Source: an uncultured Opitutaceae bacterium
Lineage (GTDB): Bacteria; Verrucomicrobiota; Verrucomicrobiia; Opitutales; Opitutaceae
DNA length: 64,000 nucleotides
Assembly (NCBI GenBank): GCA_937902925.1
Contig: CALFNN010000038.1
Coordinates: 1-64,000 of the forward strand
Direction: 5' to 3'
Shown here: in pieces, positions 39,010 through 64,000 of the stretch
Numbering within the stretch: position 1 is the first letter of the stretch
Layout of the letters: every line of letters starts with the position of its first letter
Made by a program: the position numbers and the translations under genes
The notes under the pieces: model-generated
Databases searched by the model: none
The model's input: the letters and a program-made list of their open reading frames with translations, nothing else
What the model was told of the DNA's origin: nothing

Positions 39010-39085
39010 AGCGAATCGGTCGGTGCAACCTGACTTCGCCTTTTGTCGGCTTGTCACGACGGCAAGGACGCGCACTGTTTCCAGC

Positions 39086-39289
39086 ATGCCAACCGCGACC
39101 AAGACCCTCCCACGGCAACCCGTTCGCCGCCGCACGACGAAGCACGTTTCGGCGCACGGAATCAAAGCAGTGTCGGGTAGCCCCCTTGCCGGACTGGAAC
39201 ACTTGATTGGCTGCGTCTCCCTGCCGCGCGATCCGCGTCCGCGTCGCGAAATTCTCCGTGCCCGCTACCTCGCCGATCATAATACTTGA
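39086..39289 (+). CDS. Putative antitoxin of the PIN toxin
   Basis: A 67-residue basic protein (MPTATKTLPRQPVRRRTTKH then VSAHGIKAVSGSPLAGLEHL) ending GCVSLPRDPRPRREILRARYLADHNT-like. It overlaps the PIN gene start by 32 bp, the layout usual for antitoxin-toxin pairs. The basic N-terminus could bind operator DNA, and the C-terminal helix could cap the toxin. No named antitoxin family is clearly recognisable, so the assignment is mainly by position. ATG 39086 is preferred over an earlier codon at 39023. Confidence 0.55.
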   Translation: MPTATKTLPRQPVRRRTTKHVSAHGIKAVSGSPLAGLEHLIGCVSLPRDPRPRREILRARYLADHNT

Positions 39290-41465: not shown

Positions 41466-41482
41466 GAACGTGCCGGGACAGA

Positions 41483-42769: not shown

Positions 42770-43278
42770 GAAAAAGTCGCGGGGCGGAGAGACGAATGCA
42801 AGCCCGTCAGTGGCTGCAGCCTGATGCTGACCGAAAATTTCGGCGAGTCCGAATCCACGCGGCAGCACGAGACAATTCTTCACGTGGTCAATCCGACTGG
42901 CGAACGGGAGCGTGCCTCGGCACGCTGTGACGTGTGACAAGTGGCATGTGACGAGTTGAACGGCCAACGGCGGGGCTGGAAGTGGGGAAACTACCGGGAA
43001 TCAGGTAGGGCGCGTCGTGACGGTGACGACGCGTAGGACGCGATGCTCCAAATTTCATCGTCCAAGTTCCACGGAAACTTCCAGCCGAAGCTCCAGCAGG
43101 TGCGGAGCGGACAGTTTCGAGCTCAGGCCTGGAGCCGGGAAGCCGAGAGTCGAGGGCTTGGACCGAGAGCAAAGCGATGGGACGATGAGTTCGGTTCGGG
43201 GTCAGCGACCCCGGCTACATCTCGACCCGGCGTTCGACGCCGGACTCTCGCCTCAACCCGCCCGGCTTTTCCGCTGCG
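42770..43278. other. Gene-free interval between dndC and the FlgN-like gene
   Basis: About 0.5 kb with no convincing reading frame on either strand. It contains near-repeated CGTGTGACAAGTGGCATGTG-type sequence at about 42930-42955, upstream of dndC, and two adjacent short hairpins at 43197-43243 (listed separately). The promoter of dndC should lie here, but I see no clear -10/-35 pair. Confidence 0.5.
43197..43243. repeat. Twin GC hairpins, REP-like
   Basis: CGGGGTC-AGC-GACCCCG at 43197-43213 and CCGGCGT-TCG-ACGCCGG at 43227-43243, each with a perfect 7-bp stem and triloop, separated by 13 bases (GCTACATCTCGAC). Paired GC hairpins with small loops after a gene end are typical of REP/BIME elements. 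They lie 36 bp beyond the stop of the FlgN-like gene and may stabilise or end its transcript. Confidence 0.5.
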
Positions 43279-48856: not shown

Positions 48857-48954
48857 GTGGCCTCCAAGTCATCGGCGCGCGTGCGTCCCGCTTGAGCGAT
48901 TCCCCTCAAGAAACCCGCGGAGCGCGCCGAAATTTCCTGCACACACCCATTCGC

Positions 48955-50847
48955 GTGCAGCCAGCGAAACTTCAGCGCCTCCTCCAGGAGGCCGCGGTTC
49001 ACCTCCAGGCCGGAAGGCCGGACGCCGCGGCGCGCCTCTGCGCCCAGGCCCGGGCCGCGGCGCCACGGGACTTCCGGGTGCTGTTTCTTTCGGGCGCCGT
49101 CGCGTTGAAGCAGGAGGGTTTTGCGCCCGCCGCCGACTGGCTGGGCCGCGCCCACCGGCTCGATCCGCGCTCGGCGCCGTGCGCCCTGCGGCTGGGCTTT
49201 GCGCTCGCGAAGCTCGGGCGGGTGGACGAGGCGGAGAAGGCGTTGCGCGCGGCGGTGCAGCTCGCTGCGGGCGACGCCGAGGCGTGGGACACGCTGGGCT
49301 ACGTCTTGAAGAACAACGGCCGGCTCGCGGAGGCGATTGCGGCGCACCGGCGGGCGGTCGAGCTGCAGCCGGGTCGCGCCCTGAGCTGGTATAACCTCGG
49401 GCAGGCGCTCCTGATCTCGGCGCAGCCCGCGGAAGCACTCGCCTGCCAGGCGCGGGCGCGGGCGGCGGAACCGGCGTTTGCGAAGGCGGCGTTCGGGCAG
49501 GCGCTGGCGTTGCAGGCGTGCCACCGCATCCCGGAGGCGCGCGCCGCCTACGGGGAGGCGCTCGCCCGCGAGCCGCAGAATCACGCGGCGCGCAGCTACC
49601 GGTTGATGGCGCTCAACTATCTCGACGACGTGGCACGCGAGGCGGGCTTCGCCGAGCATGCGGACTTTGGCGCGGCGGTCGGGGAGACGCCGGTGCGCGT
49701 GTTCGCCAACGCGCCGGATCCGGCGCGGCGGCTGCGGGTGGCGTTTCTATCGCCGGACCTGCGGACGCACTCGATCGCATATTTTCTCGAGCCGCTGCTC
49801 GCGCACCTGGACCGTGCGCAATTCGAGGTGGTGCTCTACCACGATCACTTCGTGGTCGACGCGATGTCGGAACGGCTCCGGGCGCGCGCGGCGGTGTGGC
49901 GGAATTTCGTCGGCCAGCCGGACGACACGGTCGAGGCGGCGATTCGCGCGGATGCGCCCGACATCCTCGTCGACCTGGCCGGGCACACCGGGTTGAACCG
50001 GCTGGCATTGCTGGCGCGACGGCTCGCGCCGGTGCAGATCAGCTACCTCGGCTATCCCAACACGACCGGACTGCGCGCGATGGATTACCGGTTGGTCGAC
50101 GCGATCACCGATCCCGTCGGGGAAGCGGAGAAATATCACACGGAAAAGCTGATCCGCTTCGCGGCGACAGCCTGGAGCTACGCGCCGCCGGCGGAAGCGC
50201 CGGAACCGGCGGGCCGGAGCCGGGCGACGGGGGCGCCCGCGATTTTCGGTTGTTTCAATAATTTCGCGAAGGTCACCGATGCAGCGCTTGAGGCGTGGGG
50301 CCGGTTGCTCGCTGCGGTGCCGGACTCGCGGCTCCGGCTCAAGGCGGCCGGACTGGGAGAACCCTCGGTCGCGGCTCACATCAACGCCCGGCTGGAGCGG
50401 GCCGGCGTCGACCAGACCCGCGTCGAGCTCATCGAGCGCACGCCGGATCTTGCGGCGCATCTTGCGCTCTACCGCGAGATCGACGTCGCGCTCGACACGT
50501 TTCCGTATCACGGCACGACGACAACCTGCGAGGCGCTCTGGATGGGCGTGCCGGTGGTGACGCTCGCGGGCGACCGGCATGCGGCGCGGGTCGGCGCCAG
50601 CCTGCTGACGGCGGCCGGTCATCCCGAATGGATCGCACGCGATTGGGGCGACTATGTGCGCATCGCTGCGGGTCTCGCAAAGGAGGCCGCCGGACGCCCC
50701 GGAAAGTGTCACGTATTACGTGACACCTTGCGGGGATCGCCGCTGCTCGACCACGCGGGGCAGGCGGCGCGGTTTGGCGCGGCGTTGCGCGAATGCTGGG
50801 CCGCGTGGTGCGGGCGCGCGGGCAATCGCGTGGCGACGGCGGCGTGA
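48955..50847 (+). CDS. TPR / SPINDLY-type glycosyltransferase (GT41), copy 1
   Basis: Putative cytosolic protein O-glycosyltransferase. The 630 residues start at GTG 48955 (VQPAKLQRLLQEAAVHLQAG), chosen because it aligns with MNPAKIKILLQDAV of the downstream paralogue. About six TPR units fill residues 1-220. The GT41 catalytic half begins near residue 258 (RVAFLSPDLRTHSIAYFLEP) with LVDLAGHTGLNRLALLARRL and the sugar-donor motif DTFPYHGTTTTCEALWMGVP near residue 513. In bacteria such enzymes modify flagellins, adhesins or polysaccharides. It is followed after 4 bp by a close paralogue. A perfect palindrome lies within its codons near 50706. Confidence 0.9.
   Translation: MQPAKLQRLLQEAAVHLQAGRPDAAARLCAQARAAAPRDFRVLFLSGAVALKQEGFAPAADWLGRAHRLDPRSAPCALRLGFALAKLGRVDEAEKALRAAVQLAAGDAEAWDTLGYVLKNNGRLAEAIAAHRRAVELQPGRALSWYNLGQALLISAQPAEALACQARARAAEPAFAKAAFGQALALQACHRIPEARAAYGEALAREPQNHAARSYRLMALNYLDDVAREAGFAEHADFGAAVGETPVRVFANAPDPARRLRVAFLSPDLRTHSIAYFLEPLLAHLDRAQFEVVLYHDHFVVDAMSERLRARAAVWRNFVGQPDDTVEAAIRADAPDILVDLAGHTGLNRLALLARRLAPVQISYLGYPNTTGLRAMDYRLVDAITDPVGEAEKYHTEKLIRFAATAWSYAPPAEAPEPAGRSRATGAPAIFGCFNNFAKVTDAALEAWGRLLAAVPDSRLRLKAAGLGEPSVAAHINARLERAGVDQTRVELIERTPDLAAHLALYREIDVALDTFPYHGTTTTCEALWMGVPVVTLAGDRHAARVGASLLTAAGHPEWIARDWGDYVRIAAGLAKEAAGRPGKCHVLRDTLRGSPLLDHAGQAARFGAALRECWAAWCGRAGNRVATAA
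50706..50726. repeat. Intragenic perfect palindrome
   Basis: Ten-base arms GTGTCACGTA and TACGTGACAC flank a single T, inside the GT41 gene and coding for part of KCHVLRDTLR. The tandem paralogue carries a degenerate version at 52705-52731 (arms AAAGTGTC and GACACTTT). Palindromes this long are not expected from coding constraint alone. Confidence 0.5.
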
Positions 50848-50851
50848 AACC

Positions 50852-52840
50852 ATGAACCCTGCGAAGATCAAGATCCTCTTGCAGGACGCGGTGACGCATC
50901 ACCGCGCGGGGCGGCTGGCGGAAGCGGAGAAACTTTACGCCCGGGTGCGCGCGGTGGCCCCGGCGAGTTTCGATGCGTGGCATCTTTCCGGCACCGTGGC
51001 GCAGCAGTTGGGCAGGTCGCGCGAGGCGGTGGAGCTGCTCCGGCGCGCACTGCGGCTGAATCCCGCGTCGGCGATTTGCGAGATGCGACTTGGCGCGGCG
51101 TGTCTCTCCGCGGGCGACCTCGCCGCGGCGGAAAAACATCTGCGCGGCGCGGTGGCGTGCGCCCCGGAGATACCGGAGGCGTGGTGTCAGCTCGGCGCGT
51201 TGCTCAAGGTGCTGAACCGGCCGGCGGACGCGCGCGCGGCCTACGAGCGTGCGCTGGCGCTCCGGCCCGGGTTCGACGAGGCCCACGACCGGCTGGCCGC
51301 GCTCATCGCGGAGACGGAAGGTTTCGTCGCCGCCGTGCCGCTGTTCCGGCGCGCGGTGGAGCGGCGGCCCAGGGACCCGGCGGCGCTGGCCAGCCTCGGC
51401 GTGGCGCTGGCGCAGTCGGCGAGCGCAGCGGAGGCGTTGAGCGTGCTCGAGCGGGCGCTGGCCGTCGACCCGGCGAACGAACTCGCGCTCACCGGGCGCG
51501 CGCTGGCGCTGCAGGAGACGTATCGAATTCCCGAGGCCGTCGCGGCCTATGGCGACGTGATTGCGCGGAACCCGCGGAGTCACGATGCGCGCAGTGGCCG
51601 GCTGCTGGCGCAGCACTACCTCGACGACGTGACGCACGAGGAGCTTTTCGCGGAGCACGCCGCGTTCGGCGCGGCGGTGGGCGAGCCCGCGGCGACACGA
51701 ACGCTGCCGAATCCGCCCGAGCCCGGGCGGCGGCTGCGGGTGGGATTTCTTTCGCCGGACCTGCGCGCGCACTCGGTGGCGTATTTTCTCGAGCCGCTGC
51801 TCGCGCATCTCGACCGGACACAGTTCGAGATTTTTCTCTATCACGATCACCCGCGGGTCGACGCGATGTCGGCGCGGCTGCGGGCGCACGCGGCGGCGTG
51901 GCGGCACGTCGCGGGGTGGACGCCCGACGCCGTCGAGGCGGGGATCCGCGCGGACGCGCCCGACGTGCTCATTGACCTCGCGGGACACACGGGGCTGAAC
52001 CGGCTGCCGCTCTTCGCGCGCCGCCTCGCGCCCGTGCAGGCGACCTACCTCGGCTATCCCGACACGACCGGGTTGCGCGCGATGGATTTTCGCTTTGTGG
52101 ATGCCGTCACGGATCCGGCGGGCGATGCGGAGGCGTTTCACACGGAGCGCCTCGTGCGGTTCGCACCGACGGCCTGGAGTTACGCACCGCCGGCCGACGC
52201 GCCGGCCGTCGCACCGGGGCCGGGTGCGGCGGGCGGGCCCGTGACGTTCGGGTGTTTCAATAATTTCGCCAAGGTCTCCGATGCGACGCTGCGCGGCTGG
52301 GCGCAGGTGCTCCAAGCGGTGCCGGAGGCGCGGCTGCTGCTGAAGGGCCTCGGTCTCACCGAGGCGGCGGTCGCGACGCGGGTCTACGAACGTTTCGCGC
52401 AGCTCGGGGTCGCGGCCGGGCGGGTCGAGTTGCTGGGACGCACGCCGGGCCTGGCGGCGCACCTGGCGCTTTATGCGCGGGTCGACGTGGCGCTCGACAC
52501 GTTTCCCTACCACGGCACCACGACGACGTGCGAGGCGCTGTGGATGGGCCGGCCGGTGGTGACGCTGCGCGGCGACCGGCACGCGTCGCGGGTGGGGGCG
52601 AGTCTCCTGACGGCCGCGGGTCATCCCGAATGGATCGCGCGCGACTGGGACGAGTATGCGCGCCTCGCCGGCGGTCTCGCGAAAGACGCCGCGGAACACC
52701 CGGAAAAGTGTCGCGGATTACGTGACACTTTGCGGGCCTCGCCGCTGCTCGACCACGCGGGACAGGCGGCACGGTTCGGAGCGGCGTTGCGCGAATGCTG
52801 GGCGGGGTGGTGCGCCGGGTGGCGCCGCTCGGCGGCCTAG
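50852..52840 (+). CDS. TPR / SPINDLY-type glycosyltransferase (GT41), copy 2
   Basis: Tandem paralogue of the preceding gene, 662 residues from ATG 50852 (MNPAKIKILLQDAVTHHRAG), 4 bp after its stop. About seven TPR units span residues 1-250 (LYARVRAVAPASFDAWHLSG, LLRRALRLNPASAICEMRLG). The catalytic part has RVGFLSPDLRAHSVAYFLEP, DVLIDLAGHTGLNRLPLFAR, ATYLGYPDTTGLRAMDFRFV and DTFPYHGTTTTCEALWMGRP. The two catalytic halves are nearly superimposable, while the TPR halves diverge, suggesting duplication followed by a change of acceptor recognition. It is followed about 54 bp later by an HDOD gene on the same strand. Confidence 0.9.
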   Translation: MNPAKIKILLQDAVTHHRAGRLAEAEKLYARVRAVAPASFDAWHLSGTVAQQLGRSREAVELLRRALRLNPASAICEMRLGAACLSAGDLAAAEKHLRGAVACAPEIPEAWCQLGALLKVLNRPADARAAYERALALRPGFDEAHDRLAALIAETEGFVAAVPLFRRAVERRPRDPAALASLGVALAQSASAAEALSVLERALAVDPANELALTGRALALQETYRIPEAVAAYGDVIARNPRSHDARSGRLLAQHYLDDVTHEELFAEHAAFGAAVGEPAATRTLPNPPEPGRRLRVGFLSPDLRAHSVAYFLEPLLAHLDRTQFEIFLYHDHPRVDAMSARLRAHAAAWRHVAGWTPDAVEAGIRADAPDVLIDLAGHTGLNRLPLFARRLAPVQATYLGYPDTTGLRAMDFRFVDAVTDPAGDAEAFHTERLVRFAPTAWSYAPPADAPAVAPGPGAAGGPVTFGCFNNFAKVSDATLRGWAQVLQAVPEARLLLKGLGLTEAAVATRVYERFAQLGVAAGRVELLGRTPGLAAHLALYARVDVALDTFPYHGTTTTCEALWMGRPVVTLRGDRHASRVGASLLTAAGHPEWIARDWDEYARLAGGLAKDAAEHPEKCRGLRDTLRASPLLDHAGQAARFGAALRECWAGWCAGWRRSAA

Positions 52841-52894: not shown

Positions 52895-53737
52895 ATGATC
52901 GCCTCGTCGTTCCCGCGCGAAACCCTGTTGCACGTCGTCAAGACGCTGCCGGCGGCCCCGCAAATCCTCGCCCGGCTCGGTCACCTGCTGCTCGACGCCG
53001 ACTCGGACTTGGAGGACATCACGGCGCTGCTGCGCTGCGACGCGGCGCTGACGGTGCGGGTCCTGCGGATCGCGAACAGCATCGTCTACAACACCGGCAC
53101 GTCGTTCGCCTCGCTTGAGCAGGCGCTGGCGCGGGTGGGTTTCAGCGAGGTTTACCGGCTGACCGGTTTTGCCGCGGCCGGCCAGCTCGCGGACCGGCAT
53201 CTGGCGCTCTACGGCATCGGGGCGGCCCGGCTGCGGGAAAACTCGCTGCTGACCGCGCTCGTGATGGAAGGGCTGGCGGAGGCGACGGAGACCGACCCGC
53301 GGAGCGCCTACACGGCGGGTCTCCTGCGCTCGACGGGCAAGATCGCCCTCGACCGGCTGACGCGCGATCCCGCCTATAGCGGCAGCTACGAGGGCTCGGG
53401 CGGAGCGCCGCTCGCGGAGTGGGAAACGACTTTCACGGGCGTGAGCAATTGCGAGGCGGCGGCGTTCATCCTCGGCGAGTGGCGGTTTCCCAACTGCACG
53501 ACCGAGGCGATCCGTCATCACTATCTCCCCGGCACGGGCGCCCCGGCCATGGCGCACCTGCTCAACCTCGCCGCGGGCGGAGCGGACCGTTGCGCGCACG
53601 GTCTGCCCGGGGAAATGTCCTACTGGGAGCTGACGCCCGCGAAATTCGCCGCGGCCGGCGTGACCGAGGAGCAGCTCGATGCCGCCACCCGCCGCGCCCT
53701 GGAGCACTTTGGTCCGTTGCGCGCGGCACTCGCCTGA
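52895..53737 (+). CDS. HDOD-domain protein
   Basis: A 280-residue HDOD protein in the middle of the glycosylation genes: VVKTLPAAPQILARLGHLLL, LLRCDAALTVRVLRIANSIV, LEQALARVGFSEVYRLTGFA and YTAGLLRSTGKIALDRL. Here the HD pair is replaced by RS, so any catalysis is lost. It resembles the HDOD protein at 35352-36290 more than that at 47927-48856 (shared AAPQILARL/SAPKVLPRL and RIANS/RMANS blocks). It presumably links some cellular signal to expression or activity of the surrounding glycosyltransferases; that is inference. ATG 52895 lies 54 bp after the GT41 gene. Confidence 0.87.
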   Translation: MIASSFPRETLLHVVKTLPAAPQILARLGHLLLDADSDLEDITALLRCDAALTVRVLRIANSIVYNTGTSFASLEQALARVGFSEVYRLTGFAAAGQLADRHLALYGIGAARLRENSLLTALVMEGLAEATETDPRSAYTAGLLRSTGKIALDRLTRDPAYSGSYEGSGGAPLAEWETTFTGVSNCEAAAFILGEWRFPNCTTEAIRHHYLPGTGAPAMAHLLNLAAGGADRCAHGLPGEMSYWELTPAKFAAAGVTEEQLDAATRRALEHFGPLRAALA

Positions 53738-53786
53738 GCCGGCGGACAAGATTTCTTTCGCCCAGCCCCAAAATCACGAGGACGTC

Positions 53787-55187
53787 ATGCGCGTATTATT
53801 TTCCACGGTCAGCCCCGCGAGCCACCAGCTGCCGCCGCAGTTCGGCGATGACCAGGTCAACTGCGGCCCGGACTGGACCGACGGGCGGGACGCCAGCGGC
53901 CGCGTGCGCTCGCTCGCGACACCCGTGGGCGACTACGATCTCGCGGCGGTGGCGGCGCGGCTGCCGTCGGATCAGCAGCCCGACGTCGTCGTCTGCCTCG
54001 TGGACGCGAGCTGGCGCAACACGCCAAGCAATCTCGCCGCGTTCAAGTGCCCCCGCGTGCTCCTGATCGGCGGCACGCACGGGGGGCAGTCGCCGCTCCT
54101 CACGACGATGCGCTACGCGACCAGCGAGCCGTTCGACCGGACGGTGTTCGTGCACGACCGGCATCACGCGATGTTTTTCCATGCGGCGGGGCTGCGGAAT
54201 CTATTCTGGTTTCCCGGGCTCACGTTTCCCCACGGCGACGCGGCGGTGCGGGCGGCACGGCTGTGCCAGCGCGACCCGCAGCTCGCGTTCGTGGGTCGCT
54301 CGGGCGGGGCGCATCCGCGGCGCACCCGCCTGCTCGAGACGCTCGCCGCCACGCGGCTGCCGCTCGTGCAACGCGTCCTCCCGCAGCGCCAGGCGCTCGA
54401 TTTTTACGGGGCCTCGCTGCTCGGGTTCAACGCGAGCCTCAACGGCGATCTCAACCTGCGCGTGTTCGAGATTCTGGCGTCGGGCGCGGCGCTGATCACC
54501 GACCGGCTGGCGCCGGAATCGGGGCTGGAGGATTTGTTCACCGACGGGAAGGAACTGGCCACCTACGCCGACGACGTGGAACTCGCGCTACTTACCACCG
54601 AATACCTGCAACGGCCCGATGAGGCCCGCGCGATGGGCGAAGCGGGGGCGGAGTGGTTCGACACCCACCTCGGCGAAACCCGCCGCCGCGAGGCGTTTCG
54701 CCGCCTGGCGTGCGACGGGATCGGGCCGGCGGAGTTTGCCTTCAAGGAGCGCGAGAAGGCGCGGGTGTTCTTCGGCGGTGACACCGACCGGTTGCTGGAG
54801 AGCGTGCAGGTTTACGAAGGCGTGCAGGAGCTGCATCGCACCCGCGAAACCGTGCGCGTGGCGGTCGACAAGATCGCGCCCGACGATCTTATCGCGATTT
54901 ATTCGACGCTGCCGCGCGTGGACCTGAGCCGCCCCGATGACGGCAACCACGCCGACCTCGCGATCTTCACGCGCGACCGCGCCGCGGCCGTGCCGCCCGG
55001 CAAGGCGGACCACTTGTGGTGCTGCGATGCGGGCGAGGCCGACTTCGATCCCCTGGCCACACGCTTCGAGTCCGCGGGTTTCAGGGCCGTGGCCGGCAAA
55101 GCCGCGGTGTTCATCCGCGCGGCGGAGCCGCCGTTACCCGAGCCCGAGACCACGCTGGTGGAGGTCACCGCGTCGAGCGCGGCGTGA
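53787..55187 (+). CDS. Glycosyltransferase, CgeB / GT1-like C-terminal domain
   Basis: A 466-residue predicted GT-B transferase from ATG 53787 (MRVLFSTVSPASHQLPPQFG). The N-terminal half is variable (LIGGTHGGQSPLLTTMRYAT, WFPGLTFPHGD). The second half has the CgeB-like Glyco_trans_1_2 block: LAFVGRSGGAHPRRTRLLET, SLLGFNASLNGDLNLRVFEI and LASGAALITDRLAPESGLED. The final about 120 residues form an extra domain (VQVYEGVQELHRTRETVRVA) of unknown role. No signal peptide or membrane segment is seen. Sugar and acceptor cannot be read from the sequence. It sits between the HDOD gene and the multi-domain transferase. Confidence 0.78.
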   Translation: MRVLFSTVSPASHQLPPQFGDDQVNCGPDWTDGRDASGRVRSLATPVGDYDLAAVAARLPSDQQPDVVVCLVDASWRNTPSNLAAFKCPRVLLIGGTHGGQSPLLTTMRYATSEPFDRTVFVHDRHHAMFFHAAGLRNLFWFPGLTFPHGDAAVRAARLCQRDPQLAFVGRSGGAHPRRTRLLETLAATRLPLVQRVLPQRQALDFYGASLLGFNASLNGDLNLRVFEILASGAALITDRLAPESGLEDLFTDGKELATYADDVELALLTTEYLQRPDEARAMGEAGAEWFDTHLGETRRREAFRRLACDGIGPAEFAFKEREKARVFFGGDTDRLLESVQVYEGVQELHRTRETVRVAVDKIAPDDLIAIYSTLPRVDLSRPDDGNHADLAIFTRDRAAAVPPGKADHLWCCDAGEADFDPLATRFESAGFRAVAGKAAVFIRAAEPPLPEPETTLVEVTASSAA

Positions 55188-55376: not shown

Positions 55377-58300
55377 ATGTCGACCGCCACCCTCCTTCCG
55401 TCGCCGGCCACCGCCTCTCCCGTGTCAGCCGAAGCCGTGGAACCGACGGGAGGAGCGGGTGGCACCGCCGCGTTCGACCGGGTGAGAGCGGCACTGGCGG
55501 TGTATGTCGCAAAACCGGCGGACGGCGAGGGCTGGGCGGAATTACTCGATGCGATGCGTGCGGCCAGTGCGGTGATAGCTGCGTTTCGACGGCAACAGAT
55601 CAACGCGCCGGACGTCGCGGCCGCTCGCGCGCTGATTGTGGAAGTTTCGCGGTCGGGAGTGCATGACGCCGCCGTGACCGAGCGGGATCTTGCCGCGGCG
55701 CGCGGGTTCGGAGGCCAAAACTGGCCCGGCTTGCTCGCGGCGATGCTGCTCACACCGGCGTGGCAGTGGCGCGAAGCGCCGCCGCTCACGGCGGCGCCCG
55801 ACTGGTTGTGGGGCGACTATGCGGCCTGGTTGTTCGCGACGCCGCAGCGATTTTCCGCGCCCGGCCAGACGGCGGCGTATGCCGGGCACTATTTGCGCCG
55901 GGCGGAGGAACTTGTCGGCTGGCTGAAGCGCAATCGCGGCGCCGCGAGCGTGCGCGCCGCGCTCGCCGCCTATGCGCAGCATGCCTCGGACATTCCGCTC
56001 TACTTTTACGAGGGCAGCCTGCGCCGCCACGCGGAGCTGCGCGCCCAGCTTTATGCGGCGGTTTGCCGCCGGCAGCAGGATAATTTCGAAGCCATCGCGC
56101 GGCCGCGCGCGGGGCGTCGCCTGCGGATCGGTTTCATCAACCGTCATTTCGGCCCGCAGACAGAAACGTTCACGACGCTGCCGTCCTTCGAGCTGCTCGA
56201 CCCCGAGCGTTTCGAAGTCGTGCTGTTTACCCACGGCAAGAAGGAAACCCCCGTGCAAAGCTACTGCCGGGAACGGTGCAGCGTCTATCGCGTCCTGCCG
56301 GCCGATCTCGGCCAGCAGCTTGCGATGTTGCGGGCGGCGGCGCTCGACGTCGCGGTGTTCGGCACGAATCTGACAGGGGTGATGAACCAGGTGGGGCTCA
56401 TCGCGCTGCACCGGGTCGCGCCGCTGCAGGTAGTGAACAACTCATCGTGCATCACGTCGGGATTCCCCGAGATCGATCTCTACGTATCGGGCACGCTGAC
56501 GGAGACGGCGGAGTCGCCGGCACAATTCAGCGAGCGGCTCGGGCTGCTGCCGGGGCCGGCCCACGCGTTCAACTACGAGGCCGGCCGCGAGGCGCCGACG
56601 GGTTCCTGGACGCGCGCGATGCTCGGGTTGCCGGACGACGCCGCCGTGTTCGTCTCGGCGGCGAACTATTTCAAGATCATCCCCGAGATGCAGCACGAGT
56701 GGGCGCGGCTGCTGGCGGCGGTGCCCGGCTCGTATCTACTGGTGCATCCGTTCAACCCGAACTGGTCGTCGACGTTTCCCCTCGAGCGATTTTGCGCCGA
56801 GTTCGACGCCGTGCTCGCGGAACACGGGGTCGACCGGCAACGCCTCGTGGTGTCGACCGTGCGTTTCCCTTCGCGGTCCGACGTGAAGGAATTGCTCCGG
56901 GTCGGCGACGTCTACCTCGACACTTTTCCGTTTGGCGGTGTCAACTCGCTGATCGATCCGCTGGAGATCGGCATTCCCGTCGTGGCCTGGGAGGGCGACA
57001 GCTTCCGCTCGCGAATGGGCGCGGCACTGCTGCGGGTGATCGGGCTGGATGAACTCGTGGCTCGCGACGCGGAAAGTTACCGCGCACTGGGCCGGCGGCT
57101 CGCGACCTCCGGGGAGGAGCGCCAGGCGCTGCGAACCCGGATCGAGGACAGGATGAGCCGCACCCCGATCTTTTTGGACACGCTGGCGGCCAGCGATGCG
57201 TTTGGCGCGCTGATGGAGATGGCGTTCGATGAGCTCGAACGCGAAGGCCGCGAGGCGTTTCGTCGCAATCGCGAGCCGCTCCGCGCGAGCACGGCGGCCG
57301 ACGCGTCGGCGCTGCTGGTCGATGGGGAGGCGAACCTCAAGGCCGGCCGGTTCGCCGAGGCGGACGAACGGGCGTGGCGACTGCTCGCGGCGGACCCGGC
57401 GTCGCCACCGGCGCGACAGCTCATGGGCCGGGTGCGGCTCGCACAGGGCAGGGCGGCGCGGGCGGTTTCGTATTTTCTCGCCGCGGTGCAGCACGTCGAC
57501 GGCAACGCGCCGTTGTGGCATGATCTCGCGGTTGCGTTCGGCGAGTGCCAGCAGATTCCCCAGGCGCTCCAGGCGCTTGAGGCGTGCCTGCGGATCAACG
57601 CGCGCTATCTCGACGGCTGGCTGATGCTCGCCCGCCTCGCGCGCGATGCGGGCAACGGCGAACTATGGCAGGACGCCCTCAATGCCGCGCGCGAACTCGC
57701 GCCGGACGACGAGCGGATTGCGGCGCTCGCCGTCGCAGTTCCCGCGGACCGTCAGGGCGAGACGGCGAATGCCGCAGCCACCCGTCACATTCTCGTTTAC
57801 ACCGACGATCCCCAGCATGGCGGAGTGGCGCACTACAACCATGCGCTCCTGCTCGCGCTCGCGCGGGCGGGGCATCGTGTGTCGTGCGTGCAATCCACCA
57901 GCGCCAGCCCTCTCGTGCAGGAGCAACGCGAGGCAGGAGTGCGGCATCTCTGGCTCGACTACGCCACCGACCGCGAGTTCGGCCGCACCGTCCAGGACAA
58001 GTCGCACGCCGAGTGGATTTTCCGGGTCGAACGGCCCGACCTGATCGTCTTCAGCGATTGCAGTCCGGTCTCGAACCTGGCGGCGCGCGACGTCGCGCTC
58101 GCGCTCGGCATTCCGTATGTCGCAGTCGTCGGATTCGTCGGCGAATACCTCGCGAAGAACTTTGCCGGCCAGCTCGCGCGGCTGGCGGGGCAGTATGCCC
58201 AGGCCACCGACGTTGTCGCGGTCTCGCAGGAAAATCTGGACTTGTTGCGGACGCGCTTCGGCCTCGCGGCCGACCGCGGCCGCGTGATCCACTACGGGCG

Positions 58301-60674
58301 GCCGGCGCGTTTTTTTTCGCCGCGCGACGAGACGGTGCGGGCGCGTTTGCGGGCGGAGGCGAAGATTCCCGCCGATGCCGTCGTTTGTTTCACGGCGGCC
58401 CGGCTCGCGACGGTGAAGGGTTTCGACAGCCAGTTGAAGGCGGCGAAGCGGTTGCACGGAAGCGCGGCCGGCGAGCGGGTGCATTTTGTCTGGGCCGGCG
58501 ACGGCGATCAGCGGGCCGCACTGGAGCGCGAGATTGCGCAGCAGGGGCTCGGCGGGGTCGTGCATTTGCTCGGTCAGCGCTGGGACGTGGCGGACTGGTA
58601 TGACGCCGCGGATATTTTCGTGCTGCCGTCACGGATGGAAGGCATGCCGCTCGCCATCATGGAGGCGATGGCGAAGGGCCTGGCGGTCGTCACGACCGCG
58701 GTCAGCGGGATTCCCGAGGAACTGGGCGACACGGGGCGACTGCTGCCCGACCCTGCGACTGATGCCGTCGGCGTCGTCACAGGGTTGGTCGAAACCGTCG
58801 CGGCGTGGGCGGCGAATCCCGCGGAGTGCCGCGCCCAAGGCGAACGCTGCCGGGAGCGCGCCATGCGGATGTTCCGCGAGGAATTGATGATCGAGCGCAC
58901 GCTCGACGTGATCGATCATGCACTCGAGGCGCCGCGCGTTCCCGTGCCCGCACCCGAGCCTTCGGCGAAGGACGACGCGGCGGCGGCCCGGAGCGCGTTC
59001 GAGCGCGGCGACTACCGCGAGGCGTTGCGGCTGGCGCAGGCGGCGCTCAAAGCCGATCACCGGTCGATCGCGGCGCTCGCCGTGCTCGGCGACGTCGCGT
59101 TGCTCAAGGACGCGACCATGGCGGAAAACATTTTCCGGCAGGCGCTGCAGATCGCGCCGCACGACGCCACGCTCTCGGCCGGGTTGGGCGAGGCGTTGCT
59201 CGGGCAGAACAAGTCGCGCGAGGCGGGCAAGGTCCTGCGCGCCGCCGCGGCCGGCGATCCGCGAAACCTGCGCGTGCTCACCGCGACGGCACGCTGGCAC
59301 GAACGCGAGGGCCGGTTCGACGAGGCGGCGGTCGCGCTGCGGCTCGCCGTGCCGCTCGCGCCGGCCACCGCGGCGGCGTGTCTGGGCCTGGGTCACGCAT
59401 TCAAGCGTTGCGGCTGCCTCCCCGAGGCGCTCGGCCGCTACCGCCGCGCAGTTGGGGTCGAGACACCGATCGCCGCGGTCGATCCGGCGGCCAAGCCGGT
59501 GCGGATTGCGCTGCTGGTGCAATACCCGCAGGGCTGGACGAGCATCCGCAGCGTGTGGGAGGCGTTTCGCGACGATCCACAATTCGCCACGACGATCATC
59601 GCCTGCCCGAATCGCCCGCCGAACCAGGTCGAGGGCGGCAGTAACGCGATCTATGGATTTCTCGAACAGCAGGGCGTGCTCTTCACGCGGTGGACCGACT
59701 TCCGGTTCGAGCCGGGATTCGCCGATGTGTTGTTCATCCAGCTGCCCTATGACATCACGCGCCCGACGCCGCTGCACGGATCCGAATTGCTGAAGCTGGT
59801 GCCACGCCTCGCATATGTGCCGTATGCACTCGAGATCGGCGGCGGAGCGGAAAACATCAACCTCCTCACGAATCTCCCGCTGCACCAGTTTGCGTGGGCG
59901 GTATTCGCGCGCAGTGCGCGGCACAAGGCAGCCTTCGCCCGCTCGTGCGCCAGTGGCGACGCGCATGTCGTCGTCACCGGCCATCCGAAGATGGATGCGT
60001 TGCGCGGGCTCGCCGCCGCGCGCGACGCGGAGCTGGAGCGCTTCATCGCGGGGCGAAAGATGGTGATCTGGAATCCGCACTACGATGCGCGTCCCGATGG
60101 TTCGGAGTGGGGCACGGGCTATTCGACTTTCCTGCGCTGGTGGCGCTTCCTGCCAGGGGAATTCGGCCGGCGGCAGGACCTGGCCTTCGTCATCCGCCCG
60201 CACCCGCTCTTTTTCGACACGCTCAAGCAGCGGCAGTTGATGACGGCGGAGCAGGTGGATGAATTCCTGGCGCGCTGCTCGGCGGCGGGCAACGTGCAGA
60301 TCGACCGGCGGTCCTCGTATCTGCCGGTGTTTGCCGCGTCCGCCGCGATGATGTCCGACGCCTCGTCGTTCGTCCTCGAGTATGCGGCCACGGGCCATCC
60401 GCTGCTTTACCTCCACAATCCGCACGGTCCGGGCCTCAACGCAGACGGGGCGTTTGTCCGCGACCATTGCGCGACGGCACAGACCGAGGCGGAGATCGCG
60501 GCGTTCCTCGACGACCTTGCCGCCGGGCGGGACGAACACGGCGACGAGCGGCGTGCCGCGTATCGCAGCGAGTTCATGCATCTGCCGGCGGAAGGCGCGG
60601 GTGAGGCGATCAAGCAGGCCGTGCTGGCACGTTTGCGCACCGAAGCCTCAGAATTGAACGCCGCGAGCCGATAG
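55377..60674 (+). CDS. Multi-domain glycosyltransferase: GT41-like, TPR, GT4, TPR, CDP-polyol transferase
   Basis: A 1765-residue cytosolic protein with three transferase modules. Module 1 (about 246-620) is SPINDLY/GT41-like: RLRIGFINRHFGPQTETFTT and VYLDTFPFGGVNSLIDPLEI. A TPR stretch spans about 640-780. Module 2 (about 804-1180) is GT4: ILVYTDDPQHGGVAHYNHAL, HYGRPARFFSPRD, FTAARLATVKGFD and EGMPLAIMEAMAKGLAVVTT. More TPRs lie at about 1200-1365. Module 3 (about 1375-1765) resembles CDP-glycerol/ribitol glycerophosphotransferases of the TagB/TagF type: VIWNPHYDARPDG, FVIRPHPLFF and MSDASSFVLEYAATGHPLLY. The next gene is expected to make CDP-ribitol, a natural donor for module 3. Start at ATG 55377. 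Confidence 0.85.
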   Translation: MSTATLLPSPATASPVSAEAVEPTGGAGGTAAFDRVRAALAVYVAKPADGEGWAELLDAMRAASAVIAAFRRQQINAPDVAAARALIVEVSRSGVHDAAVTERDLAAARGFGGQNWPGLLAAMLLTPAWQWREAPPLTAAPDWLWGDYAAWLFATPQRFSAPGQTAAYAGHYLRRAEELVGWLKRNRGAASVRAALAAYAQHASDIPLYFYEGSLRRHAELRAQLYAAVCRRQQDNFEAIARPRAGRRLRIGFINRHFGPQTETFTTLPSFELLDPERFEVVLFTHGKKETPVQSYCRERCSVYRVLPADLGQQLAMLRAAALDVAVFGTNLTGVMNQVGLIALHRVAPLQVVNNSSCITSGFPEIDLYVSGTLTETAESPAQFSERLGLLPGPAHAFNYEAGREAPTGSWTRAMLGLPDDAAVFVSAANYFKIIPEMQHEWARLLAAVPGSYLLVHPFNPNWSSTFPLERFCAEFDAVLAEHGVDRQRLVVSTVRFPSRSDVKELLRVGDVYLDTFPFGGVNSLIDPLEIGIPVVAWEGDSFRSRMGAALLRVIGLDELVARDAESYRALGRRLATSGEERQALRTRIEDRMSRTPIFLDTLAASDAFGALMEMAFDELEREGREAFRRNREPLRASTAADASALLVDGEANLKAGRFAEADERAWRLLAADPASPPARQLMGRVRLAQGRAARAVSYFLAAVQHVDGNAPLWHDLAVAFGECQQIPQALQALEACLRINARYLDGWLMLARLARDAGNGELWQDALNAARELAPDDERIAALAVAVPADRQGETANAAATRHILVYTDDPQHGGVAHYNHALLLALARAGHRVSCVQSTSASPLVQEQREAGVRHLWLDYATDREFGRTVQDKSHAEWIFRVERPDLIVFSDCSPVSNLAARDVALALGIPYVAVVGFVGEYLAKNFAGQLARLAGQYAQATDVVAVSQENLDLLRTRFGLAADRGRVIHYGRPARFFSPRDETVRARLRAEAKIPADAVVCFTAARLATVKGFDSQLKAAKRLHGSAAGERVHFVWAGDGDQRAALEREIAQQGLGGVVHLLGQRWDVADWYDAADIFVLPSRMEGMPLAIMEAMAKGLAVVTTAVSGIPEELGDTGRLLPDPATDAVGVVTGLVETVAAWAANPAECRAQGERCRERAMRMFREELMIERTLDVIDHALEAPRVPVPAPEPSAKDDAAAARSAFERGDYREALRLAQAALKADHRSIAALAVLGDVALLKDATMAENIFRQALQIAPHDATLSAGLGEALLGQNKSREAGKVLRAAAAGDPRNLRVLTATARWHEREGRFDEAAVALRLAVPLAPATAAACLGLGHAFKRCGCLPEALGRYRRAVGVETPIAAVDPAAKPVRIALLVQYPQGWTSIRSVWEAFRDDPQFATTIIACPNRPPNQVEGGSNAIYGFLEQQGVLFTRWTDFRFEPGFADVLFIQLPYDITRPTPLHGSELLKLVPRLAYVPYALEIGGGAENINLLTNLPLHQFAWAVFARSARHKAAFARSCASGDAHVVVTGHPKMDALRGLAAARDAELERFIAGRKMVIWNPHYDARPDGSEWGTGYSTFLRWWRFLPGEFGRRQDLAFVIRPHPLFFDTLKQRQLMTAEQVDEFLARCSAAGNVQIDRRSSYLPVFAASAAMMSDASSFVLEYAATGHPLLYLHNPHGPGLNADGAFVRDHCATAQTEAEIAAFLDDLAAGRDEHGDERRAAYRSEFMHLPAEGAGEAIKQAVLARLRTEASELNAASR

Positions 60675-60687
60675 AAGGAGGATTCCC

Positions 60688-62010
60688 ATGACCAAGATCG
60701 TCGGCATCATTCTCGCGGGCGGATCCGGCAACCGGTTCGAAGCCGACATCCCGAAGCAATTCTGCCTCCTCAACGGCCGGATGGTGATCGAGCACAGCGT
60801 GGCGACGTTTCGCGAGTCGGGGCTCTTTTCGAAAATCATCGTGGCGCTGCCGCCGGAGTGGATCGACAACCCGCGGGCGGCCCTCGGCGACGTGAACATC
60901 CTCGGCGGGCGGACGCGCAACGAGACGACCTGGGCGGCATTGCGGGCGTGCGATCCCGACACCGACCTCGTGCTCACGCACGATGCCGCGCGACCGTTCG
61001 TGACGACGCAGATTCTCCACGATTGCATCGAGGCGCTGCGCACCCACGAGGCGGTCGATGTCTGCATCCCGGCCGACGACACCATCGTGCAGGTCGGCAC
61101 CGACGGGTTCATCGAGAACATTCCCGACCGCCGCCGGCTGATGCGCGGGCAGACGCCGCAGGGATTTCGATTTGCCGCCCTGCGCGCCGCCTACGAGGCG
61201 AACGCCGGCAACCTCAACGCGACGGACGACGTGGGTATTTACCTGCGACTCGGCGGCCGGTGCAAAATCGTGCCGGGCTCCGCGTTCAACCTCAAGCTGA
61301 CCTATCCCCACGACCTGTTTGTCGCGGAGCGGATCCTGCAATATCGCCCGGCCAATCCCCCGAGCGGGCTCGACCTGAGTGGCAAGCGCGTGCTTCTGCT
61401 CGGCGCCACCGGCGGCATGGGATCCGTCGTGCATGGCGTGCTGCTGGCGCGCGGGGCCGAGGTCACCGCGCCGTCTCACGCCGAACTCGATCTCGCCATC
61501 ACGCCGATTCCAGAGCGGTTCGCCCGACCGTGGGACGCGATCATCCATGCGGCGGGGATCCTGAACGGCGCGAGCGACGCGGCCGGGGTCGATGAAATGC
61601 TGGCCGTGAATTTTCGCTCCGTCGTCGCCCTGACCGACCTGGCGCGCCGCTGCATGAAGGGCGGGGCGATCGTCGTCATCGGTTCCAGCTCGGCCATGAA
61701 GGGCCGCGAGGGCTTTCCGCTGTATTCTGCGTCGAAGGCGGCGGTGAACAATTTCGTCGAGGGCATCGCTCCGGTGTTGTGGCGCGAGGCCGGCGTGCGG
61801 ATCAACTGCATCAATCCCGGTTGCGTGAACACGCGCATGATCAGCGGCGCGCCGGTCACCAACAAGGATCCGCTCGAGCCGGACGACGTCGCCGAGCTGA
61901 TCGCCGCCTACACGCAGCCGGCGGACACCGGCCAGATCGTCAACATCCGTAAATATGTGCCGGTGGCTTCCGCGGCTCCGGTGTCGGTCGCGCTGCAGCA
62001 TGTGGCGTGA
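60688..62010 (+). CDS. Bifunctional cytidylyltransferase / SDR reductase (Bcs1/Acs1-like, CDP-ribitol synthesis)
   Basis: A 440-residue fusion. The N-terminal half (about 1-228) is IspD/TarI-like: GIILAGGSGNRFEADIPKQF, LTHDAARPFVTTQILHD and RGQTPQGFRF. The C-terminal half is an SDR: VLLLGATGGMGSVVHG, IIHAAGILNGASD, VIGSSSAMKG and the catalytic FPLYSASKAAVNNF. This order matches Haemophilus influenzae Bcs1/Acs1, which reduces ribulose-5-phosphate and forms CDP-ribitol. The SDR half is shorter than in Bcs1. A strong Shine-Dalgarno, AAGGAGGA at 60675-60682, precedes ATG 60688, 13 bp after the giant transferase gene. The substrate is inferred from family. Confidence 0.86.
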   Translation: MTKIVGIILAGGSGNRFEADIPKQFCLLNGRMVIEHSVATFRESGLFSKIIVALPPEWIDNPRAALGDVNILGGRTRNETTWAALRACDPDTDLVLTHDAARPFVTTQILHDCIEALRTHEAVDVCIPADDTIVQVGTDGFIENIPDRRRLMRGQTPQGFRFAALRAAYEANAGNLNATDDVGIYLRLGGRCKIVPGSAFNLKLTYPHDLFVAERILQYRPANPPSGLDLSGKRVLLLGATGGMGSVVHGVLLARGAEVTAPSHAELDLAITPIPERFARPWDAIIHAAGILNGASDAAGVDEMLAVNFRSVVALTDLARRCMKGGAIVVIGSSSAMKGREGFPLYSASKAAVNNFVEGIAPVLWREAGVRINCINPGCVNTRMISGAPVTNKDPLEPDDVAELIAAYTQPADTGQIVNIRKYVPVASAAPVSVALQHVA

Positions 62011-62064
62011 GGGCCCGAAGCTTTCCCTTTGTCGTGGCGGGAAACTGACCTCGATTCGCAGCCG

Positions 62065-63174
62065 ATGAATCCCGTTGTCATCGGCTCTGGCCCCGGCGCG
62101 GCGCCCGAAGACTTGGCCGCCGTGCGATCGCGTCGCATCCGGGTCTGTTACTTGAATGCCTGGGCGGGTGCGCTCGAGGAGGCCGCCGGCTACATCGCGC
62201 GCGCACCGACGATCGACCTCGCTCTCCTCGTGACGAATCCGCACGACGCCGCGCTGATGCGCAAGGCGCGGCTCGACTGCGACTGGTATGCGGAGAACGC
62301 GCGCTGCTTCGCTACGCTGCGGCACGATGAAATCGAGTTCCTGCCGGCGTGGGTCTGCGCTCCCGCCGCGGTGCTCGACCTGGCGAAAGCGCCGCGCGAA
62401 CCCGGCGAGGAACGCTGGCTCGTGACGATGGGGCACCAGCCGCAGGCGCTCGGCGCGATGGCGGGCAAAGTGTTCTCGCTCCTCTCGCGGATGGGCGTGC
62501 GGCATCTGTTCTACGCGTTCGACGAGGCGAGCCGGTTCATGCCGTGCTTCGGCGAGATCGCCCCGCACCTCGACGTGTTGATCCACGACGAGTTTCCGCT
62601 GGCGGCCGCGGGCGCGGCGCGGCTGAAGCCGTCGTGCCGCGTGCAACACCGGAGCTGGGTGGCGAACGTTGTCCCGTTTGCCGTGCCGTTCAACGACACG
62701 CCGGAGGAGAAGATCTTGTTTCTCGGCTCGCAGCTCGGGCTGACGCCGCACCGTGAGCGGCAGATTGCGTTTCTCCAAAAACGATTTGGCGACCGGTTCG
62801 TGCCGAGCCACGACCACTCGGTGGCGGTCGCGGACCGCGACGCGCTCAACCGCTTCAAGGCCGGCTTCTGCCCGGAAGGAAGAAAGTTCGCGACGCCGGC
62901 GATGGCCCGCACGCACACCGACCGGCCGTTCTGGTCGGGCTGCCTCGGCCTCGTGCCGGTCAGCGAGGATTCGCGCGGCGGCGGGCGGCTGGAGGAGCTG
63001 CACCGCGGCGGTCTGATCGTGCGCTATCCGCACGGCGACCTCGAGGCGCTGGCGACGGCGTGCGAACGTGCGCTGGCGACGAGCGACGCGGAGCGCAGGA
63101 AAATTTACGATCACTTCAACACGCACGAAACCGTCGGCGCGGTCGTGGCGTCGGCGCTGGCCGCGGCGAGCTAG
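62065..63174 (+). CDS. Putative glycosyltransferase of the GT-B fold
   Basis: A 369-residue cytosolic protein from ATG 62065 (MNPVVIGSGPGAAPEDLAAV). The first part is a Rossmann-like domain (IRVCYLNAWAGALEEAAGYI, WLVTMGHQPQALGAMAGKVF). The second part carries Glyco_trans_1_2-like features (ILFLGSQLGLTPHRERQIAF, FKAGFCPEGRKFATPAMART, FWSGCLGLVPVSEDSRGGGR). The CgeB-type acidic GE motif is not clearly preserved, so this is a distant member. A TTG at 62029 is an alternative start. It is the third gene after the giant transferase on the plus strand, and it converges with the DUF115 gene, with which it shares its stop at a CTAG. Confidence 0.6.
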   Translation: MNPVVIGSGPGAAPEDLAAVRSRRIRVCYLNAWAGALEEAAGYIARAPTIDLALLVTNPHDAALMRKARLDCDWYAENARCFATLRHDEIEFLPAWVCAPAAVLDLAKAPREPGEERWLVTMGHQPQALGAMAGKVFSLLSRMGVRHLFYAFDEASRFMPCFGEIAPHLDVLIHDEFPLAAAGAARLKPSCRVQHRSWVANVVPFAVPFNDTPEEKILFLGSQLGLTPHRERQIAFLQKRFGDRFVPSHDHSVAVADRDALNRFKAGFCPEGRKFATPAMARTHTDRPFWSGCLGLVPVSEDSRGGGRLEELHRGGLIVRYPHGDLEALATACERALATSDAERRKIYDHFNTHETVGAVVASALAAAS

Positions 63175-64000
63175 GCGTTGGCTGCGAGCTCGACGAGCTC
63201 GGCGAATTCGTCGAGGAAACCCCGCCACCGGTCGCGGCCGCCTTCGATCGGCGGCACGAGATGCGGCATGATTTTCAGCGAGAAGGCGCCGAGGACCCGG
63301 CCGATGTCCGACTGGGTGAACATGTCCCGCCAGGCGCCGGCGAGCGCGTCCGGGCCTCCGTCGAGCAGCGCCGCCTGCAAGGCCGGCAGCCGATTCACGC
63401 CGGCGCGGCCAGCCGCGCGCACCCCGGCGAGCGCCCGGTGCCGGACGTCTTCGCCCGGTGGCTGGGCTGGCGCGAGCGAAGCGAGGGCGGCGTCCTTGTT
63501 CGACGCGCCGGCGCCGAGGGAAAATCGGGCGGGGTGGACCAGCGTGGTGTTGCGCAGGCGGGCGCCGCGATCGTTGACGTTGACCACGAGTCCGGACGGC
63601 CAACTGGCGAGGCGGGCGTCGAGCGTCTGCCAGTCGCCATAGGCGAAAGTGGGGACCGTGGCAGCATAGTTGCCGGGCACCGATGGCTGAGACTGCGCAG
63701 GATTGTAGCCGGAATTCGCATAGAGGGTGGCGTCGGCCTCTGCATGGTGACGGCGGGAGGGATTCGCGGCGTCGGTGGCGAGGTCGAGACCGAACAGATA
63801 GATCGGCGCGCAGCCAAGGTGGCGGGCGAGTTCGAGAGCGGTGCTGCCGCAGTTCTCTGTGATCGGAATCGCCGTGCGCGCCAGGCCGAGGGAGGCCAGC
63901 CAGTCGATGGTGATCTGGGTGCTCGAGAGAAAATACTGGCGGTCCAGCGGCAGTGCGTCCGCCCAAGCCGGCGGACTGGTCGGGGCCAGCACCACGCGGG
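63171..64000 (-). CDS. DUF115 / Maf-type motility accessory protein, 5' end beyond window
   Basis: Maf proteins transfer pseudaminic or legionaminic acid to flagellin in Campylobacter and Aeromonas. The window holds the C-terminal 276 codons of a minus-strand gene still open at 64000. It reads STQITIDWLASLGLARTAIP, then ENCGSTALELARHLGCAPIY, and the DUF115 hallmark LFGLDLATDAANPSRRHHAE (GxDLAxxxxxxH pattern). A helical C-terminus (WRDMFTQSDIGRVLGAFSLK) follows. The catalytic N-terminal part is mostly unseen. It converges with the transferase gene at 62065-63174, their stop codons sharing the palindrome CTAG. Confidence 0.75.
   Translation of the reverse strand, partial: RVVLAPTSPPAWADALPLDRQYFLSSTQITIDWLASLGLARTAIPITENCGSTALELARHLGCAPIYLFGLDLATDAANPSRRHHAEADATLYANSGYNPAQSQPSVPGNYAATVPTFAYGDWQTLDARLASWPSGLVVNVNDRGARLRNTTLVHPARFSLGAGASNKDAALASLAPAQPPGEDVRHRALAGVRAAGRAGVNRLPALQAALLDGGPDALAGAWRDMFTQSDIGRVLGAFSLKIMPHLVPPIEGGRDRWRGFLDEFAELVELAANA

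Follow-up and report, generated by a model that had tools for sequence, protein, structure and literature searches.

In C. difficile and P. aeruginosa, the loci CD0241–CD0244 and PA1088–PA1091 are described as encoding a TagF-like protein proposed to transfer a cytidine diphosphate (CDP)-activated, (methylated) phosphothreonine to a flagellin sugar; the proposed phosphothreonine transferases are CD0244 and part of PA1091, and PA1091 carries a glycosyltransferase (GT) and a phosphotransferase on one chain (PMC10714395, PMC11833859). Here we analyse a multi-transferase gene in a 64,000-nucleotide stretch of DNA (hereafter the window; positions 1 to 64,000 of contig CALFNN010000038.1) from an uncultured Opitutaceae bacterium, assembly GCA_937902925.1. 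The gene encodes a protein of 1765 residues in which three transferase modules alternate with two blocks of tetratricopeptide repeats (TPRs). From sequence comparisons we favour, with moderate confidence, the interpretation that this protein builds a flagellin glycan in the cytoplasm, that its C-terminal module, here called M3, caps the glycan with a phospho-alcohol from a CDP donor, and that the gene arose by combination of two fusion genes.

Related modules are also described from other systems. TagF-like capsule polymerases have been defined as TagF-like domains with a GT-A in front or a GT-B behind (PMC5974469), and in Cps3D and Cps7D the TPR part is reported to be needed for elongation of the linker (PMC11666461). 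In H. influenzae b, Bcs1 is described as the source of CDP-ribitol for the TagF-like protein Bcs3, combining a reduction with a cytidylyl transfer (PMC10299916). Flagellin glycosylation is held to be cytoplasmic and to precede secretion, and the TPR domain of FlmG from Caulobacter binds flagellins (PMC7591256). LicD-like phosphotransferases have been noted near phosphonate genes, in a passage of that report which mentions neither flagella nor TagF (PMC6697681). Within the open-licence literature of PubMed Central we found no work on verrucomicrobial flagellin glycosylation (by title and start of abstract), no description of a flagellin, TagF or teichoic GT-TPR fusion, no paper linking flagellin with CDP-ribitol or ribitol phosphate and, by title, none on flagellin phosphonates.

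The fusion gene and its parts are as follows.

55377..60674, + strand: multi-transferase fusion of 1765 residues, from the list of open reading frames (ORFs), uninterrupted frame and composition
55377..56081, + strand: N-terminal region, residues 1–235, predicted helical at low confidence; accompanies the GT41 module in relatives
56082..57296, + strand: GT41 module, GT-B, matching OGT and SPY and in its last third also HMW1C-type enzymes
57297..57761, + strand: first TPR block (Pfam)
57762..58961, + strand: GT4 module, with R1009, K1014 and E-x7-E at 1088/1096
58929..58964, + strand: probable fusion joint, residues ~1185–1196, where homologues switch
58962..59492, + strand: second TPR block (Pfam)
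59493..60671, + strand: M3, most likely a TagF/TarL-like module for CDP-activated phospho-groups, with Y1483, H1609 and SDASS at 1660

The frame is free of stops along its whole length, and in all 17 full 100-codon windows the GC content is 0.71–0.94 at third against 0.42–0.63 at second codon positions. A chance ORF was rejected on this coding-type composition over the whole frame, and the ORF and its modules are confirmed as real. From N to C terminus the order is GT41–TPR–GT4–TPR–TagF/TarL-like, M3 comprising the last 393 residues. A first-pass annotation, made from the letters of the sequence, had proposed these module identities, TPR positions and order, which agree with Pfam, with PF04464 as reached through relatives of M3 and with a match to TarL. 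It had also called the order unusual, and the order is indeed found in one of the 13 M3-bearing genomes among the 252 genomes of the family (the grouping of the survey tool; G numbers denote genomes, G000 being that of the window, and L numbers denote loci). As to the frameshifted separate genes and lost catalytic residues that the annotation had envisaged, the frame in the window is uninterrupted, relatives carry the modules as genes of their own or in different fusions, and the key residues K433 (GT41), R1009/K1014/E1088/E1096 (GT4) and Y1483/H1609 (M3) include those expected in all three modules, except for a tyrosine at the presumed first TagF histidine.

The GT41 module (PF13844, residues 412–599, E 3.1e-22; 79 bits against a curated cut-off of 25) carries K433, which phmmer alignments place opposite the OGT/SPY lysine; in OGT this lysine belongs to the donor site. 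The local GT41 motifs are kept in close relatives of the module. A Foldseek comparison of a model of residues 1–640, built from four sequences, placed OGT and SPY first among PDB structures (E 4.3e-16; TM-scores ~0.35 by query length), which supports the fold family only. A SPINDLY-type O-GlcNAc/fucose transferase was rejected as a reading of this module: there are no TPRs before the catalytic core, the repeats lying behind it at residues 641–795, and weak matches of the last third to HMW1C-type N-glucosyltransferases also count against that subtype. Both TPR regions, residues 641–795 and 1196–1372, scored above the curated Pfam cut-offs when each was scanned alone, and residues 1–240 scanned alone gave no Pfam family at E≤0.1. 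The GT4 module matches PF13439 (residues 815–974) and PF13692 (residues 1004–1127, E 1.5e-29), so that Pfam score, E-x7-E and R..K pair are all as expected of GT4. Its R1009/K1014 and E1088/E1096 have the spacing of R982/K987 and E1059/E1067, the residues named for the GT4 of Cps3D (PMC11666461). The donor-site lysine is lost from divergent GT41 copies that stand as separate genes in G003, G340 and L056; the G003 copy (L058:13952-16384, − strand) has also lost the DTFPFGG motif, and the G340 copy lies at L071:12245-14659 (− strand). These two proteins, of L058 and L071, are possibly inactive remnants.

M3 itself gave no Pfam match at E≤0.01 when the whole protein was scanned, and a PF04464 search of the genome found no match in G000; its link to TagF was therefore made through relatives. 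In an alignment (A1) of M3 with 14 relatives, three more distant ones being left out, all 15 members match PF04464 (CDP-glycerol glycerophosphotransferase) at E≤1, the best at 1.8e-6; the curated cut-off of 22.1 bits is passed by G137 (25.1) and G255 (23.3), with G340 (22.0) just under it. The sole PDB match of the M3 family profile at E≤1 is the TarL ribitol-phosphate polymerase (E 0.0072), and there RPHP of M3 falls on HP of TarL and SDASS on SDYSS. Comparison of M3 with five strong PF04464 proteins by hhalign gave a probability of 96.7 over 227 columns. Y1483 and H1609 are among the residues invariant in A1, and H1609, within RPHP, is the one aligned with the TarL HP. The catalytic histidines of TagF are given as H444 (WHG) and H584, and in Cps7A, a glycerol-3-phosphate transferase, a tyrosine is reported to superimpose on the place of H444 (PMC11666461). 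M3 is thus most likely a TagF/TarL-like module that transfers a CDP-activated phospho-group. No M3 relatives were found in viral contigs, and M3 has no PHROGs match.

The distribution of M3 points to flagellin. In the survey made with M3 alone, to which our counts refer (an earlier one scored two candidates per genome and gives lower bounds), 13 of the 252 family genomes, that of the window included, carry the module, in seven genera. These and the order-level relative G137 form a set of 14 genomes; weaker order-level matches (G058, G115, G121, G142, G154, G171 and G180; E 1.5e-9 to ~3.4e-18) and the phylum-level relatives G474, G488, G519 and G697, which were inspected, lie outside it. A flagellin gene lies at most 14 kb from M3 on the same contig in 12 of the 14, a figure that does not stand for 14 independent cases, as the genomes share descent. 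Each of the 14 genomes has 2–6 flagellin-domain matches, and rough arithmetic, with four separate 28-kb neighbourhoods in a 4-Mb genome, gives a chance expectation of ~3%. The flagellin counts, like those of the cassettes below, come mostly from BLAST searches in which proteins from other loci served as queries; Pfam covered six ORFs of G255 and four of G340, and no neighbour in G254, G262 and G215. A scan of contigs for relatives gave one, L056, from an Opitutaceae metagenome-assembled genome, and plasmids gave M3 relatives in three organisms, Vibrio, Entomospira and Rahnella, the last adjoining phage-tail genes. In G340, one frame of 1262 residues (L071:7678-11463, − strand) holds M3 and, behind it, a polysaccharide pyruvyl transferase domain (PF04230).

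In the window, the fusion gene is surrounded by the following genes.

48892..50847, + strand: TPR-GT41 (OGT-type) protein (ORF list, Pfam)
50654..52840, + strand: TPR-GT41 (OGT-type) protein (ORF list, Pfam); the listed frame overlaps the preceding gene and its true start is probably further downstream
52895..53737, + strand: HDOD protein of the island (Pfam, relatives' loci)
53679..55187, + strand: GT-B glycosyltransferase with matches to the front half of relatives' GT-TPR-M3 fusions
60688..62010, + strand: fusion of an IspD-type cytidylyltransferase and an SDR reductase, predicted to be a donor maker like the CDP-ribitol synthase Bcs1
62029..63174, + strand: island-conserved protein of no known family, 59–75% identical in seven relatives' loci
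63171..64000, and on to ~64787 of the contig (C38), − strand: Maf-like (MptE-like) protein, three genes downstream of the fusion

A flagellin gene follows at ~64938–65771 of the same contig, outside the window and ~4 kb from the fusion, and the whole looks like a flagellin-glycosylation island. The protein at 62029–63174 has no match in Pfam, NCBIfam, PHROG or PADLOC, and several of the seven relatives' loci with its homologues are flagellin islands. Elsewhere in the window, 37879–42967 holds DndA (+ strand) and DndD/PbeC-like and DndC genes (− strand), with a DUF1016_N/SNase protein adjoining; this looks like a DNA phosphorothioation system.

A cytidylyltransferase cassette adjoins M3 in nine of the 14 genomes, in three forms: IspD and SDR (two genomes, G000 and G003), a methyltransferase with HAD and a LicC-like nucleotidyltransferase (six: G023, G277, G234, G243, G241 and G137), and a phosphoenolpyruvate (PEP) mutase-nucleotidyltransferase fusion with a thiamine pyrophosphate (TPP) enzyme (one, G268). 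Two of the three organisms with plasmid relatives (Vibrio and Entomospira) have an annotated cytidylyltransferase adjoining M3, and the phylum-level relative G474 has, by BLAST alone, homologues of the PEP-mutase/nucleotidyltransferase and the TPP enzyme beside it. Flagellin proximity and these cassettes together make it most likely that M3 caps a flagellin glycan; flagellin is thus the most likely acceptor, where the first-pass annotation had named none. The IspD-SDR protein of the window joins a cytidylyltransferase to a reductase, as a CDP-ribitol synthase does, and the reductase of Bcs1 is likewise an SDR. The best PDB match of its cytidylyltransferase half is a ribitol-5-phosphate cytidylyltransferase (E 6.1e-37); proteins named IspD score nearly as well. 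The genome holds a second strong IspD in a separate frame of 274 residues (C103). Against the plasmid collection the fusion matched 32 records, two at ≥80% coverage, one of them annotated as a bifunctional cytidylyltransferase/SDR. Its product is probably a CDP-polyol, perhaps CDP-ribitol. In G268 the PEP mutase-nucleotidyltransferase and TPP-enzyme genes lie directly behind the GT-TPR-M3 gene (L070:10120-13255, + strand), which suggests a phosphonate-capped glycan there; the contig is without flagellin, and the homologues in G474 are at L118.

Our proposal for the enzyme combines these features. The TPR blocks would most likely hold flagellin, the growing glycan or both; we propose such TPR-guided docking because the FlmG repeats bind flagellins and those of Cps3D and Cps7D are needed for linker elongation. 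Initiation of the glycan would probably fall to the TPR-GT41 or Maf-like proteins encoded nearby, after which the GT41 and GT4 modules would add sugars and M3 would act last, moving a phospho-alcohol from its CDP donor to form a phosphodiester cap. The donor in the window's genome would probably be the CDP-polyol, perhaps CDP-ribitol, of the adjacent IspD-SDR fusion, and the cassettes beside M3 in relatives would supply other CMP/CDP-activated groups. The suggestion of the first-pass annotation that the protein starts, extends and caps a glycan is therefore plausible for extension and capping and weak for the start, for which two TPR-GT41 proteins and a Maf-like protein are better candidates.

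Comparison with relatives also suggests how the gene arose. Residues 7–1185 and 11–1187 are co-linear, at 61%, with the complete GT41-TPR-GT4 proteins of G331 (1183 residues) and G015 (1184 residues), and homology to the back half of GT-TPR-M3 proteins starts at residue 1188 (G023) or 1196 (G277), so that homology switches near residue 1187. GT41 and GT4 share one frame in G015, G331, G333, G408, G290 and G292, as seen in the fetched loci, from which some frames run out. M3, for its part, is fused behind a GT of the 53679–55187 type in nine of the 13 family genomes (in G340 and G215 the frame holds only part of the GT, and that of G215 is truncated where its contig begins). G255 instead has a different kind of GT4 in front of M3, and GT41-GT4 stands there in the window's genome only. 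By length and by the place of M3, the frames of G254 and G262 nearly match that of G255. In eight GT-TPR-M3 proteins the front half aligns with the separate gene 53679–55187; for G023 and G268 the alignment reaches the final or penultimate residue encoded by this gene, and for the other six it stops at residues 478–489 of 502. Most likely, the window's fusion came about by insertion of a GT41-TPR-GT4 gene, itself a fusion, into a GT-TPR-M3 fusion gene in an island of this type; the displaced front GT would have become the separate gene 53679–55187, and the TPR-M3 half would have been joined in frame behind GT4. An insertion is the simplest reading because the GT41-GT4 gene of G015 and G331 also lies directly behind HDOD; alternatively, a TPR-M3 gene may simply have fused with its neighbour at a later time. 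Other frames in the family include a four-transferase fusion of 2552 residues in G372 (L067:6193-13848, + strand), with two GT4, a window-like GT41 and a TPR-GT41 (OGT-type) end; GT2-GT2-GT41 proteins near flagellin at L068:9023-14299 (− strand, 1759 residues) and L069:5768-11059 (+ strand, 1764 residues); and GT2-GT4-GT41 (L060:5927-10267) and GT2-GT4 (L075:6017-10612) proteins. Shuffling of transferase modules appears to be widespread in the family.

Several observations weigh against our interpretation. The M3 of the window scores 13.5 bits with PF04464, under the curated cut-off of 22.1. Y1483 can be read, from motif position only, as standing at the presumed place of H444; the hhalign match begins behind it, so that the correspondence is not proven, and an invariant tyrosine there departs from the two histidines of TagF-like capsule polymerases. 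Structural models are weak, with a mean predicted local distance difference test (pLDDT) score of 53.3 for residues 1–640 and 38.5 for a single-sequence model of M3, which was not used. The flagellins of G268 and G137 lie on contigs other than that of M3, and the fetched stretches of all four phylum-level relatives hold none; three of these (G488, G519 and G697) gave no BLAST match to any cassette query. No cytidylyltransferase was seen beside M3, mostly by BLAST, in G254, G255, G262, G340 and G215, a search that could miss one of another family in G254, G262 and G215, the last with a contig of 6.2 kb. Ribitol is not established as the polyol, since the IspD domain passes the NCBIfam ispD model (190.2 against 181.3) and misses the ribitol model (153.9 against 166). 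The start of M3-type homology ranges from window residue 1088 (G243) to 1329 (G137) over eight relatives, six of them apart from the two named above, so that the joint is well defined on its GT4 side alone.

Some of these points would suit a TagF-like capsule or exopolysaccharide polymerase that makes an exported poly(glycosyl-polyol phosphate), flagellin being close by chance. GT4, TagF-like and TPR parts on one chain are the make-up of known TagF-like capsule polymerases, the pairing of Bcs1 with Bcs3 resembles that of IspD-SDR with M3, G340 has a capsule-synthesis protein (PF05159) close to M3, and on the Vibrio and Entomospira plasmids the M3 relatives are surrounded by glycosyltransferases, with no flagellin annotated. 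The phylum-level relatives, whose fetched stretches hold no flagellin, add slightly to the weight of such a polymerase; we still consider it unlikely in view of the flagellin genes near M3 in 12 of 14 genomes, the Maf-like and TPR-GT41 proteins of the island, a domain order unlike that of Cps7D, and the lack of any capsule-export family among 18 window proteins scanned (most of 1–27 kb lying outside that scan). A different target for the enzyme, either some other surface protein or a glycolipid, the island's TPR-GT41 proteins then being general O-glycosylation enzymes, appears quite improbable; several GT41-bearing loci (for example L059, L060, L061, L063, L067 and L074) do have fetched stretches without flagellin, whereas M3-bearing loci show the strong flagellin link just cited and a Maf-like gene stands three genes downstream of the fusion.

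The fusion could further be a misassembly of two neighbouring genes, or a product on its way to decay. It is seen in a single M3 genome of 13, the assembly is a draft of 105 contigs, analysed at contig level, and the lysine-less separate GT41 proteins of G003 and G340 show that decay occurs in such islands. We nevertheless hold this to be very improbable: the joint is in frame and near a domain boundary, coding composition is continuous, the 341-base joint region has a single match in the genome, the key residues are present, and island order is kept on both sides. A bolder variant of our own proposal, decidedly unlikely in our estimate, is that the protein assembles a teichoic-acid-like chain of sugar and polyol phosphate repeats directly on flagellin, with GT41 as primer and GT4 and M3 alternating as in Cps7D within one polypeptide, and that cassette exchange beside a common M3 would swap polyol phosphate, phospho-amino acid and phosphonate caps.

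Fusions of GT and TagF-like domains for flagellin (PA1091) and for capsules, and TPR-GT enzymes for flagellin, are already known; new to us are the order of three transferases, a polyol-type cassette in a flagellin island, and a probable origin from two fusion genes, which would illustrate how shorter enzymes can be combined into a longer assembly enzyme. If our favoured interpretation of a capped flagellin glycan is true, the phosphate-linked flagellin glycans of C. difficile and P. aeruginosa would extend to a family near Opitutaceae that is represented by environmental genomes. It also predicts that the cassette beside one transferase family sets the cap: polyol phosphate, methylated phospho-amino acid or phosphonate.

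As for the closest described systems, Cps3D, Cps7D and Cps1B are reported to combine GT, TagF-like and TPR parts in one protein, as here, with GT-B/GT4 in Cps3D and Cps7D (PMC5974469, PMC11666461). Cps7D, however, has the order TPR-TagF-GT, and the window enzyme has an extra GT41 and places its GT-B modules in front of M3, outside the definition of TagF-like capsule polymerases; it also has tyrosine at the presumed first catalytic histidine, and its surroundings are those of flagellin, not capsule. With Bcs1/Bcs3, as described, it shares a cytidylyltransferase-reductase protein next to a multi-enzyme one that includes a TagF-like domain, but Bcs3 is a capsule enzyme with an additional phosphatase and a ribosyltransferase region, whereas a Pfam scan found no phosphatase family in the window fusion. 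FlmG resembles it as a TPR and GT-B enzyme of cytoplasmic flagellin O-glycosylation and differs, in its published description, as a single transferase for pseudaminic acid with TPRs in front and no GT4 or TagF-like module. A further likeness, judged by published descriptions, is to PA1091/FgtA (P. aeruginosa b-type) and CD0240/CD0244 (C. difficile type A), which pair a GT with a TagF-like protein for a flagellin glycan and have a nucleotidyltransferase in the cluster, as in the window. Their HAD, nucleotidyltransferase and methyltransferase cassette, carried by the six relatives listed above, is replaced in the window by IspD and SDR, and where FgtA is called a GT2, the window enzyme has GT41 and GT4 with two TPR blocks.

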